Part shown: in pieces, positions 6,489-56,849 of the stretch
Layout: each line of letters starts with the position of its first letter
How positions within the stretch are numbered: the first letter of the stretch is position 1
NCBI GenBank assembly: GCA_003116975.1
Contig: BGKB01000222.1
Coordinates: 1 to 64,000, forward strand
Length of the DNA: 64,000 nt
From: Aurantiochytrium sp. KH105
Taxonomy: Eukaryota; Sar; Bigyra; Thraustochytrida; Thraustochytriidae
Direction of reading: 5' to 3'
Position numbers and translations under genes: made by a program
Notes under the pieces: model-generated
Database searches by the model: none
Told to the model about the DNA's origin: nothing
The model's input: only the letters and a program-made list of their open reading frames with translations

Positions 6489-7622
6489 ATGCGAGTCGTA
6501 GTGATTGGAGGCAGCTATGCGGGGATCGCCGCAACGAGGGCGCTAGAGGCCAGCGGCATTGACGTGACCCTCATTGAGAGAAACGAGTGGTTTTTTCATA
6601 AGATTGGCGGCACGCGCGCGTGTGTCAAGCCCGGCTACGAGACAGAAGCCCTCTTGCCACTCACCCGGGCCGTCAAGAGACCTGCGTCGCGGCTCGTGCA
6701 TGGCGCGGCGCTTAATGTCAATGCTGCGGAGAACAAGGTCGAGGTCGAATTGGCCAATGGCGAGCACGAGACGATCGAGTACGATCATCTCATTCTTGCC
6801 ATGGGTCTCTCGCACGGCTTTGGACAGCTCCCGGAAAAGGTCATGTCAAAAGCCGAAATGCTCGAGTACCTTAGGACCGAACAGGAGCGAGTTCGTGCCG
6901 CAAATGTCGTTGTCATCGTAGGCGGAGGCGCGCTCGGAGTTGAGACTTCGACGCAGATCAAAGCCACGCATCCAGACAAGGAGGTCCACCTGTACCACTC
7001 GAAGGAAACATTCCTCAGCGCCGCAACCCCTCCTGTCGCGGATGAGTTCTCGGATGCAGTCCAAGAAAAACTCGAACAAATGGACATTGTATTGCATCTT
7101 GGCGGTGGTCGTCGCACAAGAGAAGATCTCGAAAAGGAACATCCAGGTGCGCTTATCATTTTCACGGCTGGCTGCGCGGCAAGCGCATCGACGCTACAAA
7201 TGCTCCCCGAGGAATGGCTTTCATCGAGTGGCGAGGTCAAGGTGCTTCCGACGCTGCAAGTCGACGGTGCGCCGTCCAACGTCTACGCTGTAGGTGATCT
7301 TGCTGCCAGTGGCGATTTCAAACAGGCAAAGTGCACAAGAGATCATGCCAAGGTCGTCGTCAGTAACATCAACGGTAAGAGAACAGTCTATAACCCAAGT
7401 CGCTCGAATCCATGGTTCGCCTGTCTCGTTCCATATCTCTGCTCTAGCTACGTGCGCGCTCGCACATCATCAACAACTCAGGTGAGCCTGTACATTGGTG
7501 AGACAGACGGAGTTACGCAGGGCTTTGGTCTCGTCTTTTCTGACAAACTTGCCGCCAAAGCAAATCATTCTGACAAGGGAGTCAGCAAGGCGAAAAAGTA
7601 TCTTGGCCTCGGTGAAGTTTAA
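6489..7622 (+). CDS. FSP1/AIFM2-like FAD-dependent oxidoreductase, copy 2
   Basis: 377 aa. It starts directly at the FAD fold ('MRVVVIGGSYAGIAATRAL'), without the N-terminal extension of copy 1. The two proteins align over their whole length with long identical blocks such as 'FFHKIGGTRACVKPGYE' and 'VDGAPSNVYAVGDLAASGDF', so this is a tandem duplication. NAD(P)H loop 'VIVGGGALGVETS' and the second FAD motif are intact, so the enzyme should be active. The C-terminus is shorter ('KKYLGLGEV') and lacks the Lys-rich tail. The two copies probably differ in localisation (membrane anchor versus soluble) more than in chemistry. That is inference from the N-termini. Confidence 0.8.
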   Translation: MRVVVIGGSYAGIAATRALEASGIDVTLIERNEWFFHKIGGTRACVKPGYETEALLPLTRAVKRPASRLVHGAALNVNAAENKVEVELANGEHETIEYDHLILAMGLSHGFGQLPEKVMSKAEMLEYLRTEQERVRAANVVVIVGGGALGVETSTQIKATHPDKEVHLYHSKETFLSAATPPVADEFSDAVQEKLEQMDIVLHLGGGRRTREDLEKEHPGALIIFTAGCAASASTLQMLPEEWLSSSGEVKVLPTLQVDGAPSNVYAVGDLAASGDFKQAKCTRDHAKVVVSNINGKRTVYNPSRSNPWFACLVPYLCSSYVRARTSSTTQVSLYIGETDGVTQGFGLVFSDKLAAKANHSDKGVSKAKKYLGLGEV

Positions 7623-7842: not shown

Positions 7843-10800
7843 TTACAGATCCAAGACGACACTTGCAGGACATAGACGCCGAATAATATCCAGACATTCC
7901 TCTGAGAACGCATTCTCTGTCAGACAAACTGCCGAAAGTGTACTGTTGGCCGCTTTCTTCTCTAAAACCTTGGCGATGCGAAAGGCAACTTCGTCCGTGA
8001 ACTCGTTGCGAGAAAGGTCCAGGCCGCATAGTCGTGGGCACCCACGAAGCTCGACTGCAGTACAAATTCGCTCAGCGTCCTCGTTATTGAGGTCGCAGCG
8101 CTGCAGCGAAATGTTCTCGAGACAGGGAAGGACCAGCGTTGGAAGCACAAGGCCCGGATTGTTTGAAAGGTTCAAACGACGCAGCCCCGTCAACACAGGC
8201 GGGTCATCAACGGAAGATTCTGGGGCCGCCACAAGCTTCCACAGCGGCTCCACGTGTACGAGACCGCAGTGTGCCAATGCGAGCGTCTCCAGTTTTGCCG
8301 CGAGAGGTCCGGCCCGCAAAGCCTCTGCAAGCGCGTCGAGATCTACATTCTCATTGCCGTCCAAGATGAGCTTGCGGAGCGACTCGTTGACGCAAAGTCC
8401 TACGTCGCAAAACCGAGCAAACCCCGCCTTGCTAAACGCACACTGGTCAATGTAAAGCTTGACAAGGGTACATTCTGGAGAAGCAAGCGCCTTCGCCAAG
8501 CTATCGAGACCAGCATCGCCAATTGGGTTCATGGAGAGCTTGAGGCTCTCGAGTGCAATTGCAGGGTCTGTCTCAAGCGTATCTGCAAGGCCGACCATTA
8601 TAGCAGGCTTCAGATTGCAGCGACGAAGGTCCAGCGAAACGAGTCGCCGCAAGATGACGGTTTCCTTGAGCGCCACGAGTGATAGCTCGCCAAAGTGATT
8701 ACCGGATTTCCAGTCACCGAGATTGAGCTTGCGCAAAGCGACACAATCTTGAAGTCCTGTCAAGACTTCGGCCACCCCGTGGTCCGAAAGCGTTCGCCCT
8801 TGAGGTAGACCGTGAATCTCCACTTTTTTCACCTTGTAGTTACTTGCAATAATTGGCATCAGAGCACAAGCCTGAGTATCGGACAATGACGTCTCTTCAA
8901 CAAACTGAATTGTCTCCATCTCGCGCTGAAGTCTGAAGATGTTCAAATCACCAAAGCCAACATTCAGAGTCTGAATGACAGGGTTCGTTGCAATTCCACA
9001 CCCAATCCGCCTCGCAGCCTGTCGCATGACCTCCTCCTGGACGGCGCTTTCCGCTTCGTGCTGGGGAATGCTCACGCGCTGCACGTGTTGCAAAATGTGA
9101 AGTAGCCCTTCAACCAAAGCCACGCTGCCCGGGTTTTTTTCAAAGTTCGTGACATCGATTTCGGACGTTGCTTCGTGAGCAATACGTTTGTTGTCCAGGT
9201 GCAGGCTCGTCAACGTACAAAAGGGTCCAATACGTTTGAGAGCGAGGCCAACATGTGTGGTGTGCTCCTCCGTGAGACGAAGCTGAAGTTGAAGACGGTG
9301 CGAGAAGAGTCCTGGAGAGCTGCACGCCTCATACAGTAACGCATTCACTCCCCCCTCTGGATCTTCTACGGCACGATACATGCGCTTTGAGATATTGACC
9401 TTGAGTATGGTCAGATCTTGGCCCAAGGAAAGGATCAACGTGCGCTCTTCCGGTGCCAACACAGACTTGTCATGAAAGGTCTCATCCTGACCGACGAAAA
9501 AGTGCACGCTCAAATGACCGCCGCAGTCAAAACGTGTCAGAGGCACCTGCGTCGAATCTTCGCGCGCAGCGGCGATGCGCTTACGCAATAGCAAGCCAAT
9601 CTGTTCGGCGTACTGAATGATATTCAGGTCCGAATGTGGACTCATATAAAAATGGAGAATGGAAGAGCTCCGGCTCAGCGCATCCAGTACGCTCAAAAAT
9701 GTCTCTTTGGACGTTTCAACTGTCTCGCCGAGACGAAGCGTGTGTAACTCGCTCATTGTAGGGATCACGCTTGCGATTCGAGCCAATACCGCATCCTCGA
9801 GAGGAGTTTCGGAAAGATCCCAGACACCGAGTGGTGCAACCATTGTGCTGAGCATCTCTGAAGGGGACCCGCAAAGTGCGAGTCGTCCGGTGGGCTCGCT
9901 CTCCAGTGCAAAGAGCAGATCCGACTTGTTTACGCCAAACGTATCGAGATCAAATGCTGCATTGGCGGTAATCAGCCTTCGAAGCGCGACACCTGCTAGG
10001 GGCTCCTTCTCCGCAATGGCCCCAAGATGTTGCACGAAGTCCTCCACTTTCTGTGCGCGCGGACTTTCGTGCAAAAAAACGCTGACGAGGAAGTCGAGCG
10101 TTACCCGGAGTACGCGCTCTCGAACACTGGCAGCGGGTGACGTGGATAATGCCTGGAATTTGCACGCTTCGATTTGCGCCATCGAGCGACGGCGATTCAG
10201 CCGCAGGCCCATGAGAAAGGGGACCGGCAGGATGCAGCCCGCTATTACGAGTGGCCACGTGCGCCGGTCCTCCCGCGACACCATTGCATTTTGTACAGAG
10301 ATTAGGCTCGCAGCGACACATGCGTAGACCAACATAAGATGAGAGCCAGCGAACACATCATTTGTGAGAGCTGCACGACCCAGAGCAGGCTGCATTCTGC
10401 GTACCTCAAAGAAAAGCTTGAGAAATATGATGCTGCAAATGAAAAGAAGAGGCATCGAGTCTCGTAGGTCGTTCGTAGAATCTACTAGTCCGCTTGACGT
10501 GGACACAGCATATTTGGCTATCGCCATGAGTACACGATACCGCGTGACCGTATTAACGTGCAAAAGGTCGGCATCGCTATCGCGAGCGGCATATTCAAGG
10601 CTCATGTAGTAGTATGCACCTCCAAATACAAGAGAGCCGGCGGAAAGCAAGAGGTGAATCGGGTTGTACCAACACTGCAAATCTGCAGCAAAAAAGTTGC
10701 GCATCACGACCTGGTCCTCGTACTCCAAGTACTCACCGTCGTCATCTGCATATGCGCAGTCCAGAGGTGCAAGCAGAGTCGTGAAAATGGGCACAAATAA

Positions 10801-13443
10801 GATCTCAAAGGCAACAAAGCGCGCCGCACAAGACAGCTCCGCACCTCGTTGCTCCAGGCGGAAGATTCGTAATGCTGCGCCAGTCAAGAGCGCACACCCC
10901 AGCACGGATCCGGCGACAATTGAAGCAGTAAGAAAGCCCATGATGGGCAGCACATGCACTGCAATGAGATGCGTCCACCAAAAGGCAATGTCTTCAGCTG
11001 CGCCTCCAGCGCGCTGGACACTCGGGTTCCATACGAGGAGCGCCAAGAATTGCGCAGGCTCAATGATACGTTGCAAGCGCGAGAGAAGCTTGATCAATTG
11101 TGGCGCGGGCCGTTTGATGAGGGCGCGCACTTCGTACTCTCGAGACCGCCCCGCAAAAAGTAGAAAACATGGTGCCGTGAGCAGCATTCCGACTGTGCAG
11201 AGAGAGCATAAGAGGATGGTCATAAAGCCGCGGAGCGGCGGAACGAGGTACGGAGGTGTCACTTGGAAAATGTCGGATACAACGAGAGCTTCTGAGAGGT
11301 TTCCGCGCGGCATGCGCAAACAGATCACCATATCGCCGTCCAGTGCATCGCGCGGAATGGTCCATCCAAAGCGCGCGGACGAGACGTACGAATCGTTCGC
11401 TGATGTCGCCGGCGAAATGGAGATTTGACCAATCTCCTCGAGCGTGACAGGGGCATCAGTGCCGTTGTTCACATCACAAATATGCACGGTCGCAGAAAAG
11501 AAACCATAAGTGGTCACGTTTACGTTGATTTCCTCCAGACCGCGTACGGGCGCATACGTAACTTCGCTGTACAGCGGGCCATTGTAAGTTGTCTTGTACG
11601 TTTCTTCCATGAAGGCCTCTTCAAGGGTGTACCCCTGATAAAGGTATTGTTGAGCGGCGACTGGGCTATCTTCTTGCCATCGCCGGGCCTTTTCGGGAAG
11701 GGTCTCCAATATAAGCATTCGTGCTCCGTTTTCGTATGCAAAAGGTGAATGAGCGCGCTCAAGGCAATAGAATCCTTCAGCTTCACACAGCAAAGGTTCA
11801 CTGGCACCTTGCGGGCAATAGTGATTAAAAGGACACTTGTTTTGGACCGCAGAGCCAGACCCTGCAGGACAGTAGTATCCGACTGCACAAACACCTCGAA
11901 GCTCACATTCTGGATCCAAGCTGATGTCACACATGCAGTCCTCGAGACGCTGGAGTCCTGTATAGGCGGAGAAGTTTCCGGCAGGACACAAGTATTCCCG
12001 GTCCGAGGTTGTTCCTTCCGGGCAGTACGAGCCGGAGGGGCACAGAGAATCATAGTACAATATCGTGCCAGGTGTGCAAAAGTATGAAGCGGGGCACACG
12101 CCCGAACAATTCGCATACTTGAGTCCTTCTGACCTGCCAAAAGTCCCTCCGGGGCACGGGACACCCGAGGCCACCCCGGGCGGGCAATAGGCTCCTTGCG
12201 GGCAAATAAGATATGGCAGTGGGGTCCCTGGTGCGCACTCGTAGCCTTCCCAGCAAGTGTTGTCCGTATAGTTCGTTGTCCCACGAGGACAATAATAACC
12301 ACCAGGACAAGGTGTCGCTGCTGGGTCTGCGGTCCCTTCTGCGCACCATTGGCCTTCGGGACAAAGGCCAGAGCAGTCTGGGGAGTCAAGACCTTCCTCG
12401 TTTCCGTATGTGCCCGATGGACAGGGCAGCGGAAGCCCAATGCCGGTGCAATAATGACCCAGGGGACAAGGAATGACATCCTCGCTTGGCGTGCTTGAAG
12501 AACCTACGGCGCAAACAAATCCAGGACTTGCCTCGCAAACCGGACATTCTTCAATGGAGGCAAGACCCACCGCATCATTGTATGTTCCAAGGGGACAGCG
12601 AAATGTGTTAGGACCGGGCGTGCCTTCTGGACAGTAGCTTCCTAATGGACAAATTTCTTGTGTGGCCGAAGTGGAGCCGGCAGGGCAATAGTAACCCGGT
12701 GCGCAGGACGCCGAGCAGGTGGATATTGAAAGCGCAGTAACCTCGCCAAAGGTTCCTGCAGGACACAGAAGTGGCATTGCGCTTCCTTCAGGACAATAGG
12801 AACCTTCAGGACATATATGGGCTCTCGAACTCGTGCTTGCCGAGGGACAGTAATATCCTTTTTCGCAAAGCCCTGAGCACGTGCTGTCTGTGAGCCCACT
12901 TGCGTTGCCATATGTTCCGGCGGGACATGGGAATTGAAAGGTCTCACGGAGACAATAGTACCCTGGACTACAGGCCCCAAGCCGTCCACCACTCTTTATA
13001 TCCTGCGCAAAGAAGACGTACGTGCTGGCCAGCGCACCGATGACTACGAGTACAAAGAGACAGCATGCAACTGCTCGCCTTCTGTTCTTTTTGATGAGCC
13101 TTTTCAGCTCCTGTTCGCGTGAGACCTTGCGATGTTGCTCGGCATTTTCTGTGATAGCCTCGGAGTCTGCGGAAGGTCGTGCGTTTTCCACATCTGAGCT
13201 GCTGCCTTCTTTCGCAATGATGCGAACGTTTGCCAACGAAGTTTCGTTGGCAGCGAGTTCATCATGACTTGTGTTTGGTTTCTCAAGCAGCACGCTATCG
13301 CCGCTGCGCGACTCGAGTGCAACTTCTTGCGGAGCGACCTTGCTTGACACGGCACGTGTCATGAGTTGGAGCCGCTCCGCCGTGGTGCGCGCCTGGGCGG
13401 TGTTCCCCCAAGCGCGCCCCTCGCTGCATGAACGGTGATCCAA
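7843..13443 (-). CDS. giant cysteine-rich-repeat / multi-TM / LRR membrane protein
   Basis: 1866 aa, no intron needed. Residues 1-120 are a polar cytosolic-type tail, followed by one TM segment (~124-146). About 154-570 is an array of Cys-rich units of the GCC2/GCC3 (ephrin-receptor-like) type, with recurring 'CPAGTYG', 'GYYCPAGS' and 'CPLGSYCPEG'. There follows a ~150-residue linker and six or seven further hydrophobic segments (~735-760, 820-860, 868-895, 925-950, 995-1015, 1035-1085). After a long soluble stretch the last ~400 residues are RNI-type leucine-rich repeats ('LRKLNLGDW', 'LVSLDLRRCNL', 'LESLKLSMNPIGDAGLDSLA'). The layout suggests a surface receptor or sensor with an ectodomain and a cytosolic LRR. 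Topology and ligand are unknown. Start could also be M28 (13362). Confidence 0.8.
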   Translation of the reverse strand: MDHRSCSEGRAWGNTAQARTTAERLQLMTRAVSSKVAPQEVALESRSGDSVLLEKPNTSHDELAANETSLANVRIIAKEGSSSDVENARPSADSEAITENAEQHRKVSREQELKRLIKKNRRRAVACCLFVLVVIGALASTYVFFAQDIKSGGRLGACSPGYYCLRETFQFPCPAGTYGNASGLTDSTCSGLCEKGYYCPSASTSSRAHICPEGSYCPEGSAMPLLCPAGTFGEVTALSISTCSASCAPGYYCPAGSTSATQEICPLGSYCPEGTPGPNTFRCPLGTYNDAVGLASIEECPVCEASPGFVCAVGSSSTPSEDVIPCPLGHYCTGIGLPLPCPSGTYGNEEGLDSPDCSGLCPEGQWCAEGTADPAATPCPGGYYCPRGTTNYTDNTCWEGYECAPGTPLPYLICPQGAYCPPGVASGVPCPGGTFGRSEGLKYANCSGVCPASYFCTPGTILYYDSLCPSGSYCPEGTTSDREYLCPAGNFSAYTGLQRLEDCMCDISLDPECELRGVCAVGYYCPAGSGSAVQNKCPFNHYCPQGASEPLLCEAEGFYCLERAHSPFAYENGARMLILETLPEKARRWQEDSPVAAQQYLYQGYTLEEAFMEETYKTTYNGPLYSEVTYAPVRGLEEINVNVTTYGFFSATVHICDVNNGTDAPVTLEEIGQISISPATSANDSYVSSARFGWTIPRDALDGDMVICLRMPRGNLSEALVVSDIFQVTPPYLVPPLRGFMTILLCSLCTVGMLLTAPCFLLFAGRSREYEVRALIKRPAPQLIKLLSRLQRIIEPAQFLALLVWNPSVQRAGGAAEDIAFWWTHLIAVHVLPIMGFLTASIVAGSVLGCALLTGAALRIFRLEQRGAELSCAARFVAFEILFVPIFTTLLAPLDCAYADDDGEYLEYEDQVVMRNFFAADLQCWYNPIHLLLSAGSLVFGGAYYYMSLEYAARDSDADLLHVNTVTRYRVLMAIAKYAVSTSSGLVDSTNDLRDSMPLLFICSIIFLKLFFEVRRMQPALGRAALTNDVFAGSHLMLVYACVAASLISVQNAMVSREDRRTWPLVIAGCILPVPFLMGLRLNRRRSMAQIEACKFQALSTSPAASVRERVLRVTLDFLVSVFLHESPRAQKVEDFVQHLGAIAEKEPLAGVALRRLITANAAFDLDTFGVNKSDLLFALESEPTGRLALCGSPSEMLSTMVAPLGVWDLSETPLEDAVLARIASVIPTMSELHTLRLGETVETSKETFLSVLDALSRSSSILHFYMSPHSDLNIIQYAEQIGLLLRKRIAAAREDSTQVPLTRFDCGGHLSVHFFVGQDETFHDKSVLAPEERTLILSLGQDLTILKVNISKRMYRAVEDPEGGVNALLYEACSSPGLFSHRLQLQLRLTEEHTTHVGLALKRIGPFCTLTSLHLDNKRIAHEATSEIDVTNFEKNPGSVALVEGLLHILQHVQRVSIPQHEAESAVQEEVMRQAARRIGCGIATNPVIQTLNVGFGDLNIFRLQREMETIQFVEETSLSDTQACALMPIIASNYKVKKVEIHGLPQGRTLSDHGVAEVLTGLQDCVALRKLNLGDWKSGNHFGELSLVALKETVILRRLVSLDLRRCNLKPAIMVGLADTLETDPAIALESLKLSMNPIGDAGLDSLAKALASPECTLVKLYIDQCAFSKAGFARFCDVGLCVNESLRKLILDGNENVDLDALAEALRAGPLAAKLETLALAHCGLVHVEPLWKLVAAPESSVDDPPVLTGLRRLNLSNNPGLVLPTLVLPCLENISLQRCDLNNEDAERICTAVELRGCPRLCGLDLSRNEFTDEVAFRIAKVLEKKAANSTLSAVCLTENAFSEECLDIIRRLCPASVVLDL

Positions 13444-20841: not shown

Positions 20842-23800
20842 CTACGACGACGACGTTGACGAAGGCGGCGGTCGCAAGAGCGAGCCGAGATATTCTCGCA
20901 CAGCGCCAATGACGCGATCAGCATCAGCTTTGCTGAGCGCGTGAACGTCGAGCGCATCGAGCTTGGAGGACAGCTGTGGGAGCGAGAGCTGCGACCATTC
21001 TTCGCTGTCGATGTGGATCCCACCAGAGGGCGCTTCCACAGCGCCCGTCATCGGAGAGTTAGTCACAGCATCAGTCGCAGCATCAGCCTCAGCGCCATTG
21101 CGCGAGCTTTGAAGGCGAGTTTGATCGTCGAACTCGAGTAGGAGCTCCTCCGTGCGTCTGAGAACGGCCTCGGGAACATCCGCGAGACGAGCCGCGTGCA
21201 CACCATACGAGTTGTCAGCGATGCCAGTTTCAATCTCGTACATGTAAATGAGTTCGTTGGTTTTCTTGTCGAGAACGGAATTCATTTTGAGGAGTTCCAT
21301 GGCGCTGTCGTCGGGCGCGAGCAACGCGGGAAGCTGATGAAAGTGCGTGGCAAAGAGCGTGCGGCATCCAATGTCCACAAGGGCTTCAAGCACAGATTGC
21401 GCAATAGCGCAACCATCACGCGTTGAGGTTCCGCGACCAATCTCATCAACAATGACAAAGGACCGCGCGGTTGCCCGACGAAGAATTGCAGCGGTTTCCT
21501 CCATTTCGACCATAAAGGTCGATCGATCAGCGATGAGCTCGTCGGATGCGCCAACTCTACAAAAGAGGCGGTCCACGAGCCCGAGCGTTGCCTCTCTGGC
21601 CGGAACAAATGCGCCGATCTGGGCGAGAATAATTATGTGAGCGTTCTGACGGAGGTAGGTGCTCTTGCCCCCCATATTAGGGCCCGTGATGAGCCAAAGT
21701 GCGCGCGCGCTGTCGGCAGCAAGGTTGCCAGACGTCAGCGTCTCGTTTCGCGCAGCAAGCGAGATCGGATTGGGAACAAAGGAGCGTGGGGCGCCTCCAA
21801 ACCCACGACTTTGGCTCTCCACGACAAGGTGTCGACCCTGGGAAACGTGAGCAACGGGGGCGTCCACGATCATAGGTCGCACCAGGTTCATGTCTTCGGC
21901 CAAGACCGCGAAGCTGTTGACCACGTCAATCTCTGCGAGAGCTTCTGCAATCTCACGAATCCTCACTGCATTCATGCGCACCTGCGAAACCAGTTTCTTT
22001 GTGATGGCGGATTCGAGCGCAGCGACCTTGTCTGCTGCACGGAGCATATCGACCTCCAGATTGTTCAGTTCCTGATGGCGGAACCGTGAGCGACCGCGTA
22101 GCTCTTGCAGTTTGCGAAGCTCGGGCAGCTTATCCATGTGCTTGGCTTCCTTTGCAGGTACTTCAATGTAGAGCATGCCGTTGCGACGCATGCCTATTTT
22201 CAGCTGCTCAACCTTGAAGCGCTCCTTGAACTCTTGCTCCTTTTTCTGAACAATGCCGCGCTTGTCCCACTTAAGCTCGCGTGCTTTGTCAAGTTCTTCG
22301 GAATAACCTCGTTGTATATCACCAGGCACGAGATGAAGCAAGCCGTCCTCATTCTCGTCCTCCTCAGCCTTTTCAGTGGCGAACTCGTCGAGTGCGTCGC
22401 TCTTGGTGAAGGCCAACTCGATGGGCTCAATTACGAGGCCGCGGTCAAAGGCGTCAAAGAGATCGGCGTGCGAGGAGCGCAGCGTCCGAATTCGCTCGAC
22501 ACTTGTGAGCAGTGAGGACGTAGGCAGTTCGGCGGCCGAAGACGACAACGCCAGAGTAGAGTCAGCGAAGGGTTCGGCAGGATCTAGCTCGCTCAGCAAC
22601 GGCCACAATTCGTCGGCAAGAGCGCTCGCTTGATGCAAAGCGATCGCAAGGACGGCAAGGTCCCGTTTGAGCCACGTTGAGTCGACGATTCGCTGCAAGC
22701 TCCGGTGTGAATCTGCGAGGAGACCGAGGTGGTCTGAAATAATGTGACGAGCTTCGATCGAGGCCTGCAAGAACTCTACGGCGTCGTGGCGCGCCTGGAT
22801 GTGATCCCCATCGATGTAAGGGGCTCGCAGATTTGTGGCAAGGAGACGCGAGCCGCCAGGTGTAATCGTGCGGTCCACAGTATGTAGCAAGGATCCGCGC
22901 TTTCTGCCTGTCACTGTTTGCAGCACTTCGAGGCTCTTGAGCGCAGCTGGATCGATCTCCATGGCTGAAGCGCGCGCACTAAGAAAGTCGTTGCGCTGAC
23001 ACGCGGAGATGTGCGGCGTTGTGTCGCGCAGGACAAATTTGCCATACTCGAGAGCTCCAGCAAGCGCGCGACGTTCCGCCGTAGTCATGAGATCGAGTGG
23101 TACGAGATCGTGCGCAGCCGTTTGCTCTAAAAGTGAGTCGAGCTTGTCGTCGTGAAAGCTTTCCTCGGGCCGAAAAGACACGCAGCAGTTACCCAGAGAT
23201 GGGCAACGAATTGCATCGAGCTCGTATGGTTGCACATGAAAGATGTAGTCGGCATCGCAGCTATCGTCACTGGAAGTTGGCGATCGATTACGAATGCCTT
23301 CATCGACAGCAAGCACGGGGATGCCCGCGAGCTCGCGCGAGAGGATGACTTCTTTGGCGGAGAAGCGGGAGAGATTGAACTCGAGCTCCTTTGCAGAACC
23401 AAGAGGTGCAAGCGCAATTTCGCCCGTGGAGAGATCCATTTGAACAAGGCCAAAGGATGGCTTGGAGCCTTTGCCGTCGGAGGCGATGGAAACCAGATAG
23501 CTTGGTTCGCTTGAACTGAGAAACTCCTCATCTGTCACGGTGCCTGGTGTGAGGATGCGTCGTATTTCCCGAATCATTACCGTTGACTTTTCGCTGTCCT
23601 TTTTCATGTCCTTGTGCTGTTCGCAGACGGCAACTCGTACCTTTTTGTCGAGTACCTGCTGCAAGTAGCGATTCAAAACAGTGTGCGGGATGCCGCACAT
23701 GTACTCATTGTACCGCCTGCCCAAGGTGATTTGCAAGAGTTCAGAAACAGTTTTGGCGTCATCGAAAAAGCATTCGTAGAAATCGCCCATGCGAAAAAGG

Positions 23801-24228
23801 ATGAGGTGGTCTGGGAGCTCTTCCTTGAGCTCGAGAAATTGCGCTAAAATTGGCTTGGCCAGGGCCTTCTCGCGGCGCGCCTCTGCTCGTATCCTCTCCT
23901 TCTCCTCTTCTTGCAGCTTCAAAACAGCCTCAACAGGGGAAAGTTTTTGAGATTTTCTTCCTCTGCGAGTCGCTGCCGTCTTTGTCGTTTTGCTGGCAGA
24001 CTTTGTCACTTTCCTCGTTGTCGTCGACTCGGTGCGCGTCGAGGGCACGGTCGACGTCGATGCCGAGGTCGATGCCAATGCCGAGGTCGAGGTCGATGCT
24101 TCTGCCACTGCTGCTGCTGCCGACCTTGCTCTGCTTGGTGCTATAGCCGTCCACGCAGGTGTCCACGGAGCGCGCGACCATCTCCGCAGCGCAGCGCGCG
24201 CAGCCCCGCGGCCTGGCGCGCGCATCAT
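20842..24228 (-). CDS. MSH1: MutS homologue, mitochondrial MSH1-type
   Basis: 1128 aa from the ATG at 24228 (1142 aa from 24270). The chosen start gives 'MMRAPGRGAARAALRRWSR', rich in Arg/Ala with no acids, a typical mitochondrial presequence. A ~100-residue Ser/Thr/Lys linker follows. The mismatch-recognition motif is 'RMGDFYECFFDDA', which keeps the Phe-x-Glu used to read mispairs. Connector, lever and clamp regions follow at normal spacing. The ATPase has Walker A 'GPNMGGKST' (residue 863 of the long form), 'STFMVEMEET', Walker B 'FVIVDEIGRGTST' and 'TLFATHFHQL'. The recognition motif and presequence favour an organellar MutS over nuclear MSH2-6. No GIY-YIG domain of plant MSH1 is present. 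Divergent from the CWC24 gene. Confidence 0.88.
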   Translation of the reverse strand: MMRAPGRGAARAALRRWSRAPWTPAWTAIAPSRARSAAAAVAEASTSTSALASTSASTSTVPSTRTESTTTRKVTKSASKTTKTAATRRGRKSQKLSPVEAVLKLQEEEKERIRAEARREKALAKPILAQFLELKEELPDHLILFRMGDFYECFFDDAKTVSELLQITLGRRYNEYMCGIPHTVLNRYLQQVLDKKVRVAVCEQHKDMKKDSEKSTVMIREIRRILTPGTVTDEEFLSSSEPSYLVSIASDGKGSKPSFGLVQMDLSTGEIALAPLGSAKELEFNLSRFSAKEVILSRELAGIPVLAVDEGIRNRSPTSSDDSCDADYIFHVQPYELDAIRCPSLGNCCVSFRPEESFHDDKLDSLLEQTAAHDLVPLDLMTTAERRALAGALEYGKFVLRDTTPHISACQRNDFLSARASAMEIDPAALKSLEVLQTVTGRKRGSLLHTVDRTITPGGSRLLATNLRAPYIDGDHIQARHDAVEFLQASIEARHIISDHLGLLADSHRSLQRIVDSTWLKRDLAVLAIALHQASALADELWPLLSELDPAEPFADSTLALSSSAAELPTSSLLTSVERIRTLRSSHADLFDAFDRGLVIEPIELAFTKSDALDEFATEKAEEDENEDGLLHLVPGDIQRGYSEELDKARELKWDKRGIVQKKEQEFKERFKVEQLKIGMRRNGMLYIEVPAKEAKHMDKLPELRKLQELRGRSRFRHQELNNLEVDMLRAADKVAALESAITKKLVSQVRMNAVRIREIAEALAEIDVVNSFAVLAEDMNLVRPMIVDAPVAHVSQGRHLVVESQSRGFGGAPRSFVPNPISLAARNETLTSGNLAADSARALWLITGPNMGGKSTYLRQNAHIIILAQIGAFVPAREATLGLVDRLFCRVGASDELIADRSTFMVEMEETAAILRRATARSFVIVDEIGRGTSTRDGCAIAQSVLEALVDIGCRTLFATHFHQLPALLAPDDSAMELLKMNSVLDKKTNELIYMYEIETGIADNSYGVHAARLADVPEAVLRRTEELLLEFDDQTRLQSSRNGAEADAATDAVTNSPMTGAVEAPSGGIHIDSEEWSQLSLPQLSSKLDALDVHALSKADADRVIGAVREYLGSLLRPPPSSTSSS

Positions 24229-24270
24229 GACGGTCGTCTCAACGAGAAAGAGTTTGTTGGGTGGCTTCAT

Positions 24271-32518: not shown

Positions 32519-35083
32519 TCACAAGAGCTGAAAGCTACGTGCATACCACGCCAACACACCGCGGGTCTTGGACTTCAATCGAGGGGCCAAAATTGTAGGG
32601 TCAACAGGTCGAAAGGTGACGGTGTAGCGGCTTCCGCGCGTCATTTTAAGAGGAATCGAATGGCACAAGCTTGTCCACTCGGTGATAAGGCTCCGCGGCT
32701 TGACCACTTGCAATGGTTCGGACACTACGACCGCACCAGCTTGCGAGCGCAATTCAATTTCCAGTTGCGGGTTCACAGCGTCTTCCTGGCCGCCCCACAT
32801 GAGTCCCACAATCTTGAGGTACGTTGCGTTCGAGGTGACGTGTCGCCACTGCTCCACACGAGTAGCCGCTGCGGAGAGGCCTTGCTTGGCGTGCCAGCCA
32901 TAGGCCATGGTGGATGGTGCCTTTTGCATATGCACGCGCGTTCTGAACTCGTTCATTTGCCCTGTTGGCTTGACGCGACGCGCATCAACAAATTTGACGA
33001 GTCGCACCCATTTGATACATGTGCACCCATACCAGTTGGGCACCACAAGACGAATGGGAAATCCATGGTCAGGCGGAAGCGGCTCACCATTGAGCTCCGT
33101 GGCAAAGAACATCCCCGTGCTCATAACCTGATCCCACGTAAAAACCCAGCTTGCCCCCTTCGCGCCACCTGCGGTCTTGATGTGCTCGTCGTAGCCCTCG
33201 ACAAGAATGGCGCGGCCGTCGGAAGCAGTGCCGGCCGCAGGAAGGTAATCGTTCAAGAGGTCACGTACCCTGACGCCACGAGTCCACTGTGCTTGTGATA
33301 AAAGGCCAAAGTGCCACACGCGCGTGTTTCCCGAGCACTCCATGACGCCAGTGCCTACGTGCGATCCAACGTCGTGAATCTCCTGAGCCGAGAAAGTGTG
33401 GAGAATTTGACCACTAACAGACTGCACTTGCACCTTCCACGTCTCCCTCGAAAGCGCCATGGCATCCAGTGTACCAGGGAGTCCGGTCCGGATGTAAAAG
33501 GCCGACGCAGGGGTGGTCTGCAAGAGCGGGGGCGTGAGAAGGGCGAGGTCGACAGAGAGTCGCATGGCTAGCTCTGAGCTATGGGGGATTCCAAAGGTTT
33601 TGCTCCGGCCACGAGCATATTTTTCCGAAAAAGGAGCCACAGCGTCAAGTTCCCACTCGCCCTCCCGTGCAAGCTGTGTGGGAGGGCCAAAACACGGTTC
33701 GCCTTGCACAGGTTGACGAAATACGCGTCGCTTGAGCCCGAGGGAGTCTGTCTCGTCCACATCTTCAACACCGTCATCAAGAGGCGCAGACGGCACGATC
33801 TCTCCTGCACGAATGGTGCCGATTCGGTACATGCGCGTCGTTTCGATCGCTACATCTGAATGGCCCTGTTCATCGAATGTTTCCGTAGCATTGTATCCAA
33901 GATACGGTAACATGATCTCTTTCCCGCCAGGATGAAAATCAAGCCAACGCGTCACGTCGAGCACATCGCGACCGAGAACAATCCATGCGTCATGTGCGCT
34001 TTGGTGCTTTGCGACCTCTGCAGCCGAAAAAAGTGCACCTGCAGGAGGCTCGCGTTGACCTGAAGCGTGGGAGAGCGCCCCATTGGAGCTGCTCGTCGCT
34101 TCGTGCACATTAGCGAGGTTACTTTTGGATCCGTGCTGAGACGGCGTTGCAGCTTCTGCAGCGGCGTGCCGCGCAGCGAGTTCGTCCAGAGAAGGACCAA
34201 AGTGACCGTACCCAGTCTCTTGCACTTGACCCATGTAGACTGTAGTAGCAGTTCCGAGCACAAGAACGAACGCGAGAACACGTAAATGGCGACGGCCCCA
34301 CGTCTTTATGGACGCAGCTGCACGAAAAAGAATGCGTGGCATCAAACTCCACAGTCCGCCAACGAGGAAAAACCAGGTGCCCACAAATTTTTGCGGGACG
34401 AGGAGCAAAAGTGCATTGGCAAAGGGATCTGTGTACCCTGAAAGGAATGCAAAGTTGCTTGCAAACGTGGTGTGGTGGACATTGTGATGTGCGTGGGAGA
34501 CAAAGAGCAGATTCAAGAGCGAGGCGGACGCCCACGTCTCGCTCACGTGCGAGTACCAGTGGCCCACGTATGCAAGCTCAAAGAAGGCAGAGATGGCGAG
34601 CGTGCACCAGCGCAGACGAGCATTGGTGCTCGAGGCTGCGAGAAGCACCAATGGAAGGAGAAAGCAGAGCGGCGGAGCAGACAGCTTGGTTGGGTCAATG
34701 TGATGCTCCTGGAAGGAGTCCGCACTTTGACGAAGAATGGGCCATCGATGGAGCACCTCTGGATTATCCAACACGACATGAGAGATGGCGCTGCCCAAAT
34801 CGCCCCATAGATATGCAAAGATAATTGGAAGTGCCATTGTCCACCACCACGACGCGTGTTCTACGGGGACCTTTTCCTTGTTTGCGCGCTGCAAACGCTG
34901 CATGTGGAGATCTTGCCAGTCTCGAACGACGAGAACAGCAAGGTAGAGCAGGATTCCGGCCGTGGTGAAGTCCAGAAACCCGCCTACAAGATCCGAGAAC
35001 GAGAAACCCCAATGTGGACGGGCCTCGCTACCTTGAGCGGCATCTTGATTCGAACCATCACAAGATATACTGTCTGCATCCAC
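32519..35083 (-). CDS. lipid desaturase - cytochrome b5 - molybdopterin oxidoreductase fusion protein
   Basis: 854 aa, one uninterrupted frame. Module 1 (~30-285) is a polytopic membrane domain of the TMEM189/CarF/FAD4 lipid-desaturase family. Its metal-binding histidines are complete: H102 ('SAISH'), 'FQEHHIDPT' (H127, H128), 'HWYSH' (H175, H179) and 'HHNVHH' (H200, H203, H204). Module 2 (~355-425) is cytochrome b5 with heme ligands H384 ('HPGG') and H408. Module 3 (~470-700) is a sulfite-oxidase-type Mo-cofactor domain with ligand C583 ('MECSGNTR'), 'DHGFPIRLVVP' and 'KWVRLV'. The Mo-co dimerisation domain spans ~707-850. Modules 2-3 repeat the order of animal sulfite oxidase. I infer electrons pass from Mo through heme to the di-metal desaturase. 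Substrates (plasmanyl lipid, phosphatidylglycerol or other) are unknown. The usual 'RNH' of sulfite oxidase reads 'RTG' here, so sulfite may not be the donor. Confidence 0.88.
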   Translation of the reverse strand: MDADSISCDGSNQDAAQGSEARPHWGFSFSDLVGGFLDFTTAGILLYLAVLVVRDWQDLHMQRLQRANKEKVPVEHASWWWTMALPIIFAYLWGDLGSAISHVVLDNPEVLHRWPILRQSADSFQEHHIDPTKLSAPPLCFLLPLVLLAASSTNARLRWCTLAISAFFELAYVGHWYSHVSETWASASLLNLLFVSHAHHNVHHTTFASNFAFLSGYTDPFANALLLLVPQKFVGTWFFLVGGLWSLMPRILFRAAASIKTWGRRHLRVLAFVLVLGTATTVYMGQVQETGYGHFGPSLDELAARHAAAEAATPSQHGSKSNLANVHEATSSSNGALSHASGQREPPAGALFSAAEVAKHQSAHDAWIVLGRDVLDVTRWLDFHPGGKEIMLPYLGYNATETFDEQGHSDVAIETTRMYRIGTIRAGEIVPSAPLDDGVEDVDETDSLGLKRRVFRQPVQGEPCFGPPTQLAREGEWELDAVAPFSEKYARGRSKTFGIPHSSELAMRLSVDLALLTPPLLQTTPASAFYIRTGLPGTLDAMALSRETWKVQVQSVSGQILHTFSAQEIHDVGSHVGTGVMECSGNTRVWHFGLLSQAQWTRGVRVRDLLNDYLPAAGTASDGRAILVEGYDEHIKTAGGAKGASWVFTWDQVMSTGMFFATELNGEPLPPDHGFPIRLVVPNWYGCTCIKWVRLVKFVDARRVKPTGQMNEFRTRVHMQKAPSTMAYGWHAKQGLSAAATRVEQWRHVTSNATYLKIVGLMWGGQEDAVNPQLEIELRSQAGAVVVSEPLQVVKPRSLITEWTSLCHSIPLKMTRGSRYTVTFRPVDPTILAPRLKSKTRGVLAWYARSFQLL

Positions 35084-36237
35084 GGAAAGTGACGTCAGCG
35101 AGTCCGCGCGGGAAGGGTCCGAGAGTTGATCGCTGCGCTGGGGCGGGAAGTCATCGTCGGGTTGCCATACGCAACATGGGTCTCCAAGCTCTATTCCATT
35201 CGTCTCGCCATCGCCATCGGAGTCACGTCCACAAAGGCACTCCGACCTGTGAGTTCGTCAACAACAACAACAAAAAACAACAACAGCGGCAACAATAACA
35301 ACAGCAACAGCAAAAAGGAGGAAGGAATGTGCCGTAGCCCGGTTTGTGGTTGGTTAGATGAATCATTTGTTTGTCTGGCTGGTTGGTCTGTCTGTCTGTC
35401 CAACGATCATTGTTTATCATCGTTCTCGTCGTCACCCTGACAACATCATAGGTCGACGTACCATTGCCCATCGCAAGCAAGGAAGTCAATGCCAAAGGGA
35501 GACAAGGGTCCGCCCCCCACGCCCTCGCTATGGCCTGCTGCTGGGAAAGCTCTTCCGTTTGGGATACGTAGCGCGTTCACCGGAAACCCGAGCGCGGTCG
35601 GGCCCTCGGTGGCGACCTTGGCCATGACAAAGACAAGGGCCGTGGCGCGGGCGGCCGGCGAGGTTGCACGGCGTCTCCGCTGGCGCAACAGCTGCGCGCG
35701 CTGCGCACATCCCCTCTCATCTTTGCCCATGGTGTCTTGTCTTTCTTGCACAGGACGTGAAGGTTTTGCTGGCGCTTGCTTGCCCGGCGCGCCGCGTGAC
35801 GGCAAAATATGTCCGATTGAGCGTCCCGCAAGTAGGAAGGAGGTTCGCTCTCACCTTTGTGCTGTGACGATCTTTGTTGCAAATGATGACGAGGGTGGCA
35901 TTGGCGCGAAGAGACAAAGAGAGAGAGAGAGACGGACGGACGGACGGACGAACGGACGACGAAGCCCAATTATTGTTTTTCTTAACTAAAAACACAATCA
36001 AAGTCTGCGTATCGAGAGTTGGTGGCCAATTCTTGAGCGAACTTGTCATGGTTCCGCGTTTTGTTGTGGCTCGGGTTTCGGCGTGGCCAAGAAGACGAAT
36101 TGGAGGACCGCAAATCATGGTGACAAAAAGTAAACATGAGCTTGATAAGAGAGAAATGAAAAAAAATATAAAGGACAGGGTCATGAGGGCAGTCAGGGTT
36201 CAGAATTTCGTAGCCATGTTTTTTGATTTTTGGTTCG
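35084..36237. other. spacer with microsatellites and unassigned splice-like signals
   Basis: Lies between two minus-strand genes. It contains AAC/CAG-rich runs (35260-35315), TGTC and GAGA/GGAC runs (35385-35400, 35920-35955), and an open frame starting at ATG 35489. A 'gtgagt' at 35249, 'catcatag' at 35452 and 'cttgcacag' at 35754 resemble splice sites. No combination gave a protein I recognise. It may contain a small spliced plus-strand gene or only the 5' region of the redox fusion gene. Confidence 0.35.
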
Positions 36238-53414: not shown

Positions 53415-54413
53415 GCCTAGCCGGCTCACCGGTCGGTCGCGTGCCAGGGCGGGCTGTTGCCGCAAAGCAGCGGCGCGGGTTTAGCGTAGCCGCGGCTTAG
53501 AGAGGCCTATGGCGCTGGTCCGGTCCAGCACGGAGAGAGAGAAAGAAAGATAGAACCAAGCGCGCCAAGTCCAAGGGCAGCGAGGCCCAGCTCCTCCCAG
53601 CTCCACTCGCGCGCGCTCTCGCGGCGGCCGGACCGGCAGCGCCAGGGCAGGCGAGGATCGCGCCGCGATGGCCGCAAGGCTCGGGGGGCGCGGCCGCTTG
53701 CAGCCTGCAGCCTGCTCGCAGAAGCACAGCAGTGCACGAGAAGGTCTTTCGTCACGTTTTTTTTCTTTTTTCTTCCTTCTCCTCGCCTCGCCTCGCCTTG
53801 GCTTTATCGCGCGAGGTCTTGTATGTGTACGTCATGTAAGAGATAGTCGCTATACGGAACAAGACCCAGTGGCAGCACCTGGGAAACAAATAAAGCAAGG
53901 CTTATTACGGCGTGAAATGGCGCCATCCGTCGTAACTAGTGCCGGGCAAGTGGCGGCGCGGGGCTGCGCGAAAGAACTCGGGGAGGAGAGGAGAGGCCGC
54001 CAGGGAGCGCTTCTGGTCCTCTGCGCGGCCGTCACCACGACGCGGAGGACCAAAAAGCTGCAGCGGAGCGAGGCTTTCCTACGCTTCGTCGCGGACCCAG
54101 CAAGGCTCTCTTTGGAACCCGCATCGAGACCCGAACCCGTACCTGACCATGGTGTGACTAGTGCGCACTAGACATGAAACTGTACGGCGTGACAATATGC
54201 TCCGCAACGCAAAATAGAAGGCGTGGAAAAAAAAAAAAAGGCCCGGGGCGATGGTAAGTCAACGGCCACCTTGCTTGCTTGGTCGCGTCAATCGTGAAGG
54301 CAGAGCCCAGTTCTGCCTACCTTTGAGCGTGCGTGCGTGCCCGTCGTGACGTACCTGCGTGCGTGCGTGCCCAGTCTGTGCACGCGTCGCGCGCGAAATT
54401 AGTCGAGAGCATC

Positions 54414-56191
54414 ATGGAGCTCAGCAGGAGCGACCTCGCCACCGTGGGACCCGTCTCGGGCGTGGACACGCTTAAGGTGCTGCCGTTTGGGAGCAAAAGC
54501 CGGAGGCAAAAGGTCGTCGTCGGCGATAACGCGGGCTTCGTGACCTGCCTGCAGTCCAAACGCGGAGAAACAACGGCCGTCTACAAAACGAGAGTGGCGG
54601 ACGGCGGCAATGCCATCGCGGCACTCGCGCTCGCCCCCAAAGGTGACACCGTCTTCGCCGCCGAAGGTCGAAACGTCCATGGGCTCAACCGCAAGGGCAA
54701 GGTCGCTAAAAGGTTTGAGACCAAACTCTCTGAGGCAATGCAGTGCCTCGTCGCCGGCGATGATGACACCTTTTGGGCCAGCGGCGACCACACCTATACC
54801 GCCTTTCAGCGCGAACGCGAGCTCGACTACATGAGCTTTGGAGATGCCGTCACGAGCCTCGCCGTCGCTGCACCCAACAACAACGGCGAGCATACTGCTC
54901 TTGTCGGCGGACAAGGCCACCAAATTCGAGCCGTCCGTAGCGGCAACATCGGCGCCACGCTCGCCACGACTGGGGCGCCCACCAGTCTCAAAGAATTACA
55001 CGCTCGCGATGGATCCGACAACATCTTTGCTTACGGCACCTTCACCGGAAGTCTCGGCCTCTTGCAGGCCGACACCAAGGCTCAAAATCCCGAACTCCGA
55101 CGTATTTGGGAATCCCAGGGCGACGGCGGCATCAACTGCATTGCCACCCACGACCTCAGCAAGGACGATGTGCCCGACATCATCGTTGGCCGAGATGACG
55201 GCCGCCTTCAGGTCTATAGGCTCCAAGAGGAAGGCAGTGGCTTGATGTCTCTAAATAGCGAGTCAAAGCACGCCCGCGGCGCGCCTGGTCTTGCGTCGCT
55301 GCAATTTGAGCGCTTCGTCGACGAAAGCGTCCGCTCTGTGCAAGCCGGTGTTGTCAGCACGCCGGGCTTTGATGAGGTTGTTCTCTGCACATACTCGGGT
55401 AACATCATTAGCTTCAGCTCCGAGGCCCTCGACGCCGCCGAAGTTGGCGACAAGCAAGGAAGAACGAAGGCTGACATTGATGTTGAAGGTAGAACTGCGC
55501 AGCTCCGTAGCGACCTCAAGGCGGTTCAAAAGCAAATTGACGCCACGCGCGCCAAATTGCTCAAGGTCAGCGGGAAGAATGACCTGCGCACCGAGCAACG
55601 CGGCGGCATCAACTTTGAGCAGCTCCAGGTGAGCCAGCGCTTCGACTTGCTGCCCCGCAAAGGGTATCACGTTCTTGCTCTGCAGATGGCCGTGCCCATG
55701 TCGCTCGTCGTCTTGCACTCGGACCTTCCCATTCGTCTTCTCGACGCCGAGGAAGCTACCGCCAGCGATGCTGGACGTGGCGCGCAGAGCATGGTCATTA
55801 CGAAGACAGAGTCTGCTCAAGGCCTGCACGCTGTATTTCGTCCTCAGGAACCTTGCAAGCGTGTGGAAATTCGCATCGGGACCCTCGAGGGTCAGCATGG
55901 CCAACTCCGGGTTACCGTTGTTGCAGCCACCTCCCCGCCTCTAGGGCGCCAGCTCACAGTCGACGTCAAACCTCTCTCTCTGCACCAACGCTGCGATGCC
56001 ATCGCAAATGTGGACCGCGTGCCTCTCAGCAACGTTAGCTTCTCGGGGTCTTTTTCCTTGCATCAAGCACACGACTGGATCCAATCTTGTCTACCGGATG
56101 TACCCGCCACCGTACCAATGCTGAGTGAGACGTTAGACGCCGCGACCATGTCTTCGAGCCGTCCAGACAGTAACGGCAGCAACAGCAGCCA

Positions 56192-56222
<31 letters not shown>

Positions 56223-56849
56223 GAGGAGAAGGAGCCGAGCCCAGATGGAGGTAGCGCGTCCGACCGCGGCATGCCTCAAGACGAGCCTCCCACTGCATCT
56301 CTGTACTATCGTAGCACACTCGTGGACAGCGTGCTCATCGTACGATACCGTAGCGGCCTCGTGAAAATTGAGTCCGACTCTGTGTCTGCAATCGCAATTG
56401 CGCGAGAAGTCATCACCGCAGAGGCCAACCGACGCAAAGCCAACGTCGCCATGCGCTTCAACATTAGACCAGACACGGTTCCATACTTTTTGCAACATCG
56501 ACTCGACGCCAAGCTCGTCCAATTCTCTGCTCTCGCCAGCCGCGACCTTCTCGTGGATGCGCTGCGCGAGATTTGCAGCGATGCTGACGGGTCCACAAAT
56601 GGCGCTTTTCTGGCCCCCGAGCATCGAAGTCTCTTGGCCGCGCCTGGCGCTTCGGACGCTGCGCAACTCACACAAGCCAAGCTCACGCTCCAAGCGCTGC
56701 ATGGCGTGGTCTCAGACCTGTACGTGGACGTGCAAAAGTTTGCCGGTCGCGATGTGCGCAGCCCGCACGAGCATGCCGCCTTGTCACGTGTTCTCGAGAA
56801 TTACTCGCTCCAGGACCTCGCCGATTTTTTTGCTGGAGGCGCTGCGTAG
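54414..56849 (+). CDS. BBS7: BBS7, BBSome subunit
   Basis: 811 aa from the ATG at 54414 ('MELSRSDLATVG'); an upstream in-frame ATG at 54333 adds 27 residues from GC-rich 5' sequence and is less likely. The N-terminal half is a beta-propeller with 'QKVVVGDNAGFVTCLQSKRG' and 'DVPDIIVGRDDGRLQVYRL'. A coiled coil follows ('LRSDLKAVQKQIDATRAKLL'). The C-terminal GAE, platform and hairpin regions include 'VTVVAATSPPLGRQLTVDVK', 'PLSLHQRCD' and 'TLQALHGVVSDLYVD'. It ends 'LENYSLQDLADFF'. This matches BBS7 along its length. The BBSome moves membrane proteins in and out of cilia. A lineage-specific poly-Asn run (AAC repeats near 56190-56222) interrupts the platform region. Confidence 0.95.

Follow-up and report, generated by a model that had tools for sequence, protein, structure and literature searches.

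A predicted four-module fusion of Temptin_C, a lipid desaturase, cytochrome b5 and a sulfite-oxidase-type molybdenum domain in Aurantiochytrium sp. KH105

The minus strand of a 64,000-nucleotide stretch of the Aurantiochytrium sp. KH105 genome (hereafter the window) carries a gene for which domain searches and structure comparison show four modules in one chain, in the order Temptin_C, Lipid_desat, cytochrome b5 and a sulfite-oxidase-type Mo domain with a dimerisation-type fold. The product may be a membrane enzyme in which a chain running from Mo to haem to a di-metal site powers lipid desaturation, a direction of flow to which we give about an even chance. Such a protein would be a His-box desaturase made self-sufficient by a Mo donor, assembled from known modules newly combined, and would be neither PEDS1, FAD4 nor a sulfite oxidase. 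The author of an earlier note on this DNA knew of no described enzyme with this order; likewise, the matches listed in a search of the open-access literature included no description of the fusion.

Gene model and domain order

The earlier note had read the desaturase, b5 and Mo domains in a single frame. This fusion is real, the frame at 32519-35083 (minus strand) being open over 854 amino acids, and it is larger than was stated, with a fourth module contributed by a 5' exon. The gene, a eukaryotic one, is predicted to have two exons and a 998-amino-acid product, and the open reading frame (ORF) accounts for the greater part of its exon 2. In-frame coding sequence is found 5' of the GTG at which the ORF begins (CLCGRDSDGDGETNGIELGDPCC), with a CACAG acceptor before that, and a GTACGT donor closes exon 1; judged from the sequence, this GTG is very probably not the true start. 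Exon 1 was modelled by comparing the N-termini of two homologous proteins, P0003 and P0006, by eye, and its splicing to exon 2 is predicted from homology to both. The 5' exon, the Temptin_C module and a reversed charge bias across the membrane had been missed in the earlier note. The features of the gene are the following.

35462..35730, minus strand: predicted exon 1, with the ATG in CACCATGGG context, an Arg-rich leader, a weak hydrophobic stretch and the first half of Temptin_C
35247..35461, minus strand: predicted intron of 215 bp, GTACGT...CACAG (GT-AG), from homology to P0003 and P0006
32519..35246, minus strand: exon 2, comprising the ORF plus 54 codons 5' of its GTG; stop codon at 32519-32521
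35111..35571, minus strand: Temptin_C (PF24784), split by the intron and scoring 76.7 bits against a cut-off of 27; residues 54-135 in 998-aa numbering
34421..34813, minus strand: Lipid_desat (PF10520) core, ORF residues 91-221, with D-x6-HxxxD, FQEHH, GHWYSH and HHNVHH
34223..34381, minus strand: two more hydrophobic segments past the second His cluster (379-397 and 413-431 in 998-aa numbering), with a basic loop between them
33812..34024, minus strand: cytochrome b5 domain, haem ligands H384 and H408 (ORF numbering)
32978..33451, minus strand: Mo domain of sulfite-oxidase type (PF00174), Mo ligand C583
32522..32884, minus strand: C-terminal beta domain with a putative sulfite-oxidase dimerisation-domain fold, from structure comparison, without a Pfam Mo-co_dimer match

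In Pfam searches of the ORF, Oxidored_molyb matches residues 545-702 (6.3e-29) and Cyt-b5 residues 354-424 (4.8e-17). The Lipid_desat match (residues 91-221, 9e-6, 26.3 bits) lies just below the cut-off of 26.4, with 25.9 bits for the spliced protein and 28.1 in a six-frame search. Temptin_C is above its cut-off in the spliced window product as well as in P0003 (79.3 bits) and P0006 (71.2 bits), and by eye Cys and a DxDxDG loop can be made out in this module. Pfam found no FAD/NAD domain in the chain. Among PDB chains searched with phmmer, sulfite oxidases came top and b5 proteins next, and the desaturase gave no meaningful match to solved structures. Three of the four domains named in the earlier note were thus recovered, Lipid_desat being borderline in the window and clear in the relatives, but the fourth was not: Mo-co_dimer has no Pfam match in the fusion, while the same model matches this genome's own sulfite oxidase and nitrate reductase. 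On structure comparison, rather than by profile, the C-terminal part appears to have a fold of the sulfite-oxidase dimerisation type.

The b5 axial histidines H384 and H408, in HPGG and GHS contexts, are invariant in the fusion alignments. Together with C583, they had been placed correctly in the earlier note: the haem ligands, the Mo Cys and the second His cluster are invariant in an alignment with P0002 and P0003, and also in a four-protein alignment with P0006. In the structural model of the whole protein, confidence is low for the desaturase and for most of b5, and a model of the N-terminal, desaturase-bearing half of the protein has a pLDDT of 44.

Relatives and alleles of the fusion

A whole-length search returned three matches among 7991 scored candidates (P0002, P0003 and one b5-only match), and a profile of the b5-Mo half returned 118 among 7998 candidates, including P0006. 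P0003 (923 aa) and P0006 (870 aa), which come from JGI data, match the four Pfam models too, arranged as in the window product. Three proteins hence have the four modules in one chain, namely these two and the window product as spliced, with the Lipid_desat score of the latter just below the cut-off. Assignment to PF10520 and PF00174 holds: PF00174 is matched at 6.3e-29, and PF10520 exceeds its cut-off of 26.4 in P0003 (40.8 bits) and P0006 (30.2 bits). P0002 (698 aa, MMETSP transcript source) starts inside the desaturase, of which it has the second half without the first His motifs, and continues through b5 and Mo; it has no Temptin_C. The missing 5' part probably reflects a truncated transcript, and P0002 provides RNA-derived evidence, from another organism, for a single message over the desaturase-b5-Mo junctions. 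No viral relative was confirmed in 183 pattern stretches scanned, and a word-limited search gave no stand-alone desaturase relative at E<=1e-3 among 7995 scored candidates.

The contig of the second haplotype (C367) carries an intact copy with identical ATG, splice sites and length, and an intron of 191 bp. The two copies differ at 34 amino acids. Nei-Gojobori dN/dS between them is 0.20 overall, with 0.18 for Temptin, 0.16 for the desaturase, 0.14 for Mo and 0.12 for the C-terminus; the leader (0.56, five differences) and the desaturase-b5 linker (0.70, three differences) are higher. By this measure the gene is shown to be under purifying selection across its modules.

A gene-model artefact, whether from a pair of neighbouring genes or from a join made in assembly, is extremely improbable. 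The Lipid_desat score of the window is just below the Pfam cut-off (26.3 versus 26.4 bits) and the exon 1-exon 2 junction is predicted from homology; however, the desaturase-b5-Mo join is seen on the contigs of both haplotypes, in two independent full-length proteins and in one ORF derived from a transcript, and purifying selection spans the modules. The frameshift considered in the earlier note was not found, as the frame stays open in both haplotypes and in two further full-length proteins. On the combined evidence of both haplotypes, the homologues and dN/dS, an artefact or a pseudogene was rejected.

Affinity and active site of the Mo module

Four SUOX-family genes were found in this 76 Mb genome, each on two contigs: the fusion, a separate ordinary sulfite oxidase (b5-Mo-dimer), a separate nitrate reductase (Mo-dimer-b5-FAD-NAD) and a shorter single-domain protein that looks MsrP-like by eye. 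In a tree of 49 rows, only five of which are sulfite oxidases or nitrate reductases, the Mo module of the fusion groups with neither of these but with exported-looking bacterial proteins, and a clade uniting the fusion with the five is rejected (p-AU 2.99e-5). The bacterial rows were picked with a fusion-derived query, and 28 of the 75 found were used. The Mo module therefore appears to share its ancestry with a bacterial clade, separately from sulfite oxidase and nitrate reductase.

The active site does not agree with that of an animal-type sulfite oxidase. At the equivalents of Y322 and R450, which we take to be active-site positions in chicken sulfite oxidase numbering, all four fusions have Ala at the former and Asp, Asp, Lys and Lys at the latter, whereas this genome's own sulfite oxidase has Tyr and Arg. 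That an animal-type sulfite oxidase was simply joined to a desaturase is rejected on the tree, with its five sulfite oxidase or nitrate reductase rows, the AU test and these residues. What the fusion does share with eukaryotic sulfite oxidase is the succession of b5, Mo domain and dimerisation-type fold, along with the Mo Cys and the equivalents of R138 and R190; it differs in its clade, in having no Pfam Mo-co_dimer match and no Y322 or R450, in a shorter Cys-loop and in the attached desaturase. Nitrate reductase likewise combines a SUOX-fold Mo domain and b5 in one chain, but the enzyme of this genome is ordered Mo-b5-FAD-NAD, and no flavin module was found in the fusion.

The closest relatives found for the Mo module are bacterial proteins of about 400 aa that align over the Mo and C-terminal parts. 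Unlike the fusion, these are stand-alone and exported-looking, with an RR motif in 60 of the 75; many are labelled 'DMSO/TMAO reductase YedYZ catalytic subunit', and they come from Acidobacteriota, Myxococcota, Planctomycetota and others. Because no desaturase or b5 match occurs among the 596 ORFs called in 72 bacterial loci of the Mo clade, these flanking genes lend the fusion no 'Rosetta stone' support. Lipid_desat was found in none of three bacterial genomes with the Mo protein, in a run in which no control gave a signal; the same search was positive in 53 of 188 genomes of the phylum of those three bacteria. By eye, the recurring neighbours at the 72 loci look like TPR and TonB/carboxypeptidase-regulatory proteins, and one weak tblastn match to temptin (E 0.06) was seen at one bacterial locus (L087).

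The desaturase module

HxxxD, FQEHH, HxYSH and HHxxHH are present in the window protein, the second allele, P0003 and P0006. CarF and TMEM189 are reported to need eight His, one Asp and one Phe (PMC9131029), and the fusions keep the eight conserved His, the Asp of HxxxD and the Phe of FxEHH. A ninth His (CarF H113, mouse H131), which plant homologues lack, is described in the same source as essential in CarF, and its mouse mutant as having plasmalogen formation strongly reduced, though not abolished (PMC9131029). The earlier note had credited the desaturase with all histidine motifs, which is true of the eight His but not of the ninth: its position is occupied by Pro, Pro and Val in the window protein, P0003 and P0006. 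It is present in 20 of 21 parsed bacterial references, drawn from 28 loci that were the best 28 of 59 matches; seven of the 28, which the regular expression did not match, were left out of the counts. One of these seven (L137) has, by eye, no His at the ninth place. Since the fusions have Pro, Pro or Val there, a plasmalogen product, suggested in the earlier note as vinyl-ether formation, becomes less likely.

With CarF/TMEM189 (PEDS1) and plant FAD4, the fusions share membership of PF10520, the eight His motifs, the Asp and the Phe, but they differ from all of these by the attached Temptin_C, b5 and Mo modules. They further depart from CarF/TMEM189 (PEDS1) in the replacement of CarF H113 and in a reversed K+R bias, and resemble the plant homologues in the missing ninth His (plant state as reported in PMC9131029). 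In this genome Lipid_desat was found nowhere but in the two fusion alleles, with a near-threshold score at which a diverged second gene could escape. Fatty acid desaturases and hydroxylases fused to b5, such as front-end desaturases and Scs7, also have b5 and a His-box membrane enzyme on one chain and still need NADH-b5 reductase; the fusion differs from them in the Mo module after b5 and in its PF10520-type desaturase.

Membrane orientation and location

CarF is described as having four helices, with all His cytoplasmic (PMC9131029). The His side holds 1-3 K+R in the four fusion rows (three proteins plus the second allele) versus 7-11 in 21 parsed CarF-type references (of 28 loci), and the TM3-TM4 span holds 2-3 versus 0-1, which shows a K+R bias reversed with respect to these 21 proteins. 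Of the loops of the window protein, TM1-TM2 and TM5-TM6 have five K+R each. As the positive-inside rule links K+R to the cytosolic side, the reversed bias suggests that the His cluster lies on the lumenal or exterior side, and perhaps b5, Mo and Temptin with it.

A lumenal side is consistent with the N-terminal Temptin_C, a small domain of secreted type with its Cys and DxDxDG loop, with the exported-looking bacterial Mo relatives, with an NAT sequon at N398 of the b5 domain in four of four fusions and with the N-terminus of P0003, flagged as hydrophobic at residues 5-23 by a segment scan; that of P0006 is signal-like by eye, though not flagged. It is at odds with the Arg-rich leader of the window protein, in which no segment exceeds the scan threshold, with an extra flagged segment directly behind HHxxHH (residues 355-373 of the window protein and 309-327 of P0003), and with where Moco enzymes are known: we know of no eukaryotic Mo enzyme in the secretory lumen, and those known to us avoid the ER lumen. 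By analogy with CarF, the segment after HHxxHH was treated as non-membrane; should it cross the membrane, b5 and Mo would be opposite the His cluster and the chain would fail. The scan is crude: it failed to pick up TM1 of P0003, and two of the segments that it flagged lie within the folded Mo domain.

There is an appreciable, though lesser, chance that the same enzyme faces the mitochondrial intermembrane space or the cytosol and not the secretory lumen, a placement compatible with our preferred direction of electron flow. The Arg-rich leader of the window protein speaks for it, as do the avoidance of the ER lumen by the eukaryotic Moco enzymes that we know and the fact that mitochondrial sulfite oxidase works in the intermembrane space; this last location would ease the objection drawn from known Moco enzymes. 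Such a placement fits less well with the hydrophobic stretch 5-23 of P0003 and the signal-like start of P0006, or with the sole other occurrence of Temptin_C found in this genome, in a Cu2_monooxygen/Cu2_monoox_C protein carried on two contigs, Cu-monooxygenases being a secreted class. Moreover, the charge bias speaks against the cytosolic variant, whereas the intermembrane one keeps the inverted orientation. Somewhat more doubtful is an inside-out, self-powered desaturase with Mo, haem and di-metal site all outside the cytosol, where an extracellular or lumenal reductant, oxidised at Mo, would drive desaturation of the outer or lumenal leaflet without NAD(P)H.

Direction of electron flow

In the mechanism we propose, the Mo module would oxidise a small molecule and release two electrons, the b5 haem would hand these singly to the di-metal His cluster, and the cluster would use O2 to form a double bond in a membrane lipid, with one substrate oxidised per bond. 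One double bond formed with O2 needs two electrons. If the His cluster, b5, Mo and Temptin are on the lumenal/extracellular or mitochondrial intermembrane side, they would be beyond the cytosolic NADH-b5-reductase route, and this would account for the electron source built into the enzyme. As no flavin module was found in the chain, the built-in donor would be the Mo centre, and we infer that desaturation powered by Mo oxidation, as put forward in the earlier note, is the most economical mechanism.

The flow could be reversed, because the SUOX family includes reductases. An external reductase would then feed the b5 haem, from which electrons would go to the desaturase and also to a Mo site that works reductively, like those of nitrate reductase and MsrP, and Mo would not be the power source. 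We regard this as unlikely. It draws support from the existence of SUOX-fold reductases, from this genome's nitrate reductase with its Mo, b5 and FAD/NAD domains (the path in nitrate reductase being FAD to b5 to Mo) and from a Mo site without the Y322 and R450 equivalents of sulfite oxidase; tandem genes for pyridine-nucleotide oxidoreductases are also present in the window (4266-5711 and 6489-7622), though nothing ties them to the fusion. On the other hand, no FAD/NAD domain was found in the chain, the b5-Mo order is that of sulfite oxidase and not of nitrate reductase, and lumenal modules, as the charge bias suggests, would be out of reach for cytosolic reductases. Less probable still is a Mo module acting as a redox sensor or regulator, with desaturation using another oxidant or reductant. 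The peroxiredoxin PRXQ is reported to enhance plant FAD4 activity (PMC12456178), and the ninth His is lost in the fusions as it is reported to be in plant homologues (PMC9131029). However, the fusions retain the Mo ligand and the two haem ligands as well as the core of the Mo domain, which suits catalysis better than sensing.

Implications

Five molybdenum enzymes were counted in eukaryotes in a 2023 review (PMC10637980), and the fusion would be a further one, with a descent distinct from that of sulfite oxidase and nitrate reductase. If electrons do run from Mo through haem to the di-metal site, lipid desaturation would be tied to small-molecule oxidation at a fixed stoichiometry, and the electron source of a PF10520 desaturase would become directly testable on one chain. 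If the proposed topology holds, it raises the question of how the molybdenum cofactor is routed into the lumen. Were all three redox centres outside the cytosol, the protein would represent a sixth kind of eukaryotic molybdenum enzyme, to our knowledge the first in the secretory pathway, and would imply a new route of the molybdenum cofactor into a secretory compartment.

Features of the fusion protein and related genes in the assembly

The predicted 998-aa fusion carries an NAT sequon at residue 542, within the b5 fold, that is found in all four fusions compared. A second sequon, at residue 896 in the same numbering, is present at the aligned position in three of the four.

In the same-organism genome assembly (G000), the searched-for genes are mostly paired, with one copy on each of two contigs, and the two copies of the fusion share 97% protein identity. 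Because of this largely paired arrangement, the assembly appears to include both haplotypes.

Temptin_C also occurs outside the fusion, in a distinct gene (C64:14305-14592, L035, and contig C40) that combines it with a copper type II ascorbate-dependent monooxygenase, both halves of which are present. There are two predicted cases of temptin-redox enzyme linkage within this single genome. In addition, the assembly encodes a eukaryotic single-domain SUOX-fold protein with a membrane-like segment at its N-terminus (C44:851859-852332, L032; C108, L033), which by eye looks similar to the SUOX-fold reductase MsrP.

Other genes in the window

4266-5711 and 6489-7622, plus strand: tandem pair of pyridine-nucleotide oxidoreductases (Pfam family Pyr_redox_2)
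7843-13443, minus strand: 1866-aa ORF; by eye, Cys-rich repeats, membrane segments and a leucine-rich-repeat-like C-terminus
20842-24270, minus strand: member of the MutS family that has the full set of five MutS domains and is extended at its N-terminus
54333-56849, plus strand: BBS7

One member of the Pyr_redox_2 pair has an additional membrane-like extension at its N-terminus. The 1866-aa ORF gave no matches in a Pfam search at 1e-5. Given its BBS7 gene, the organism is probably ciliated or flagellated.
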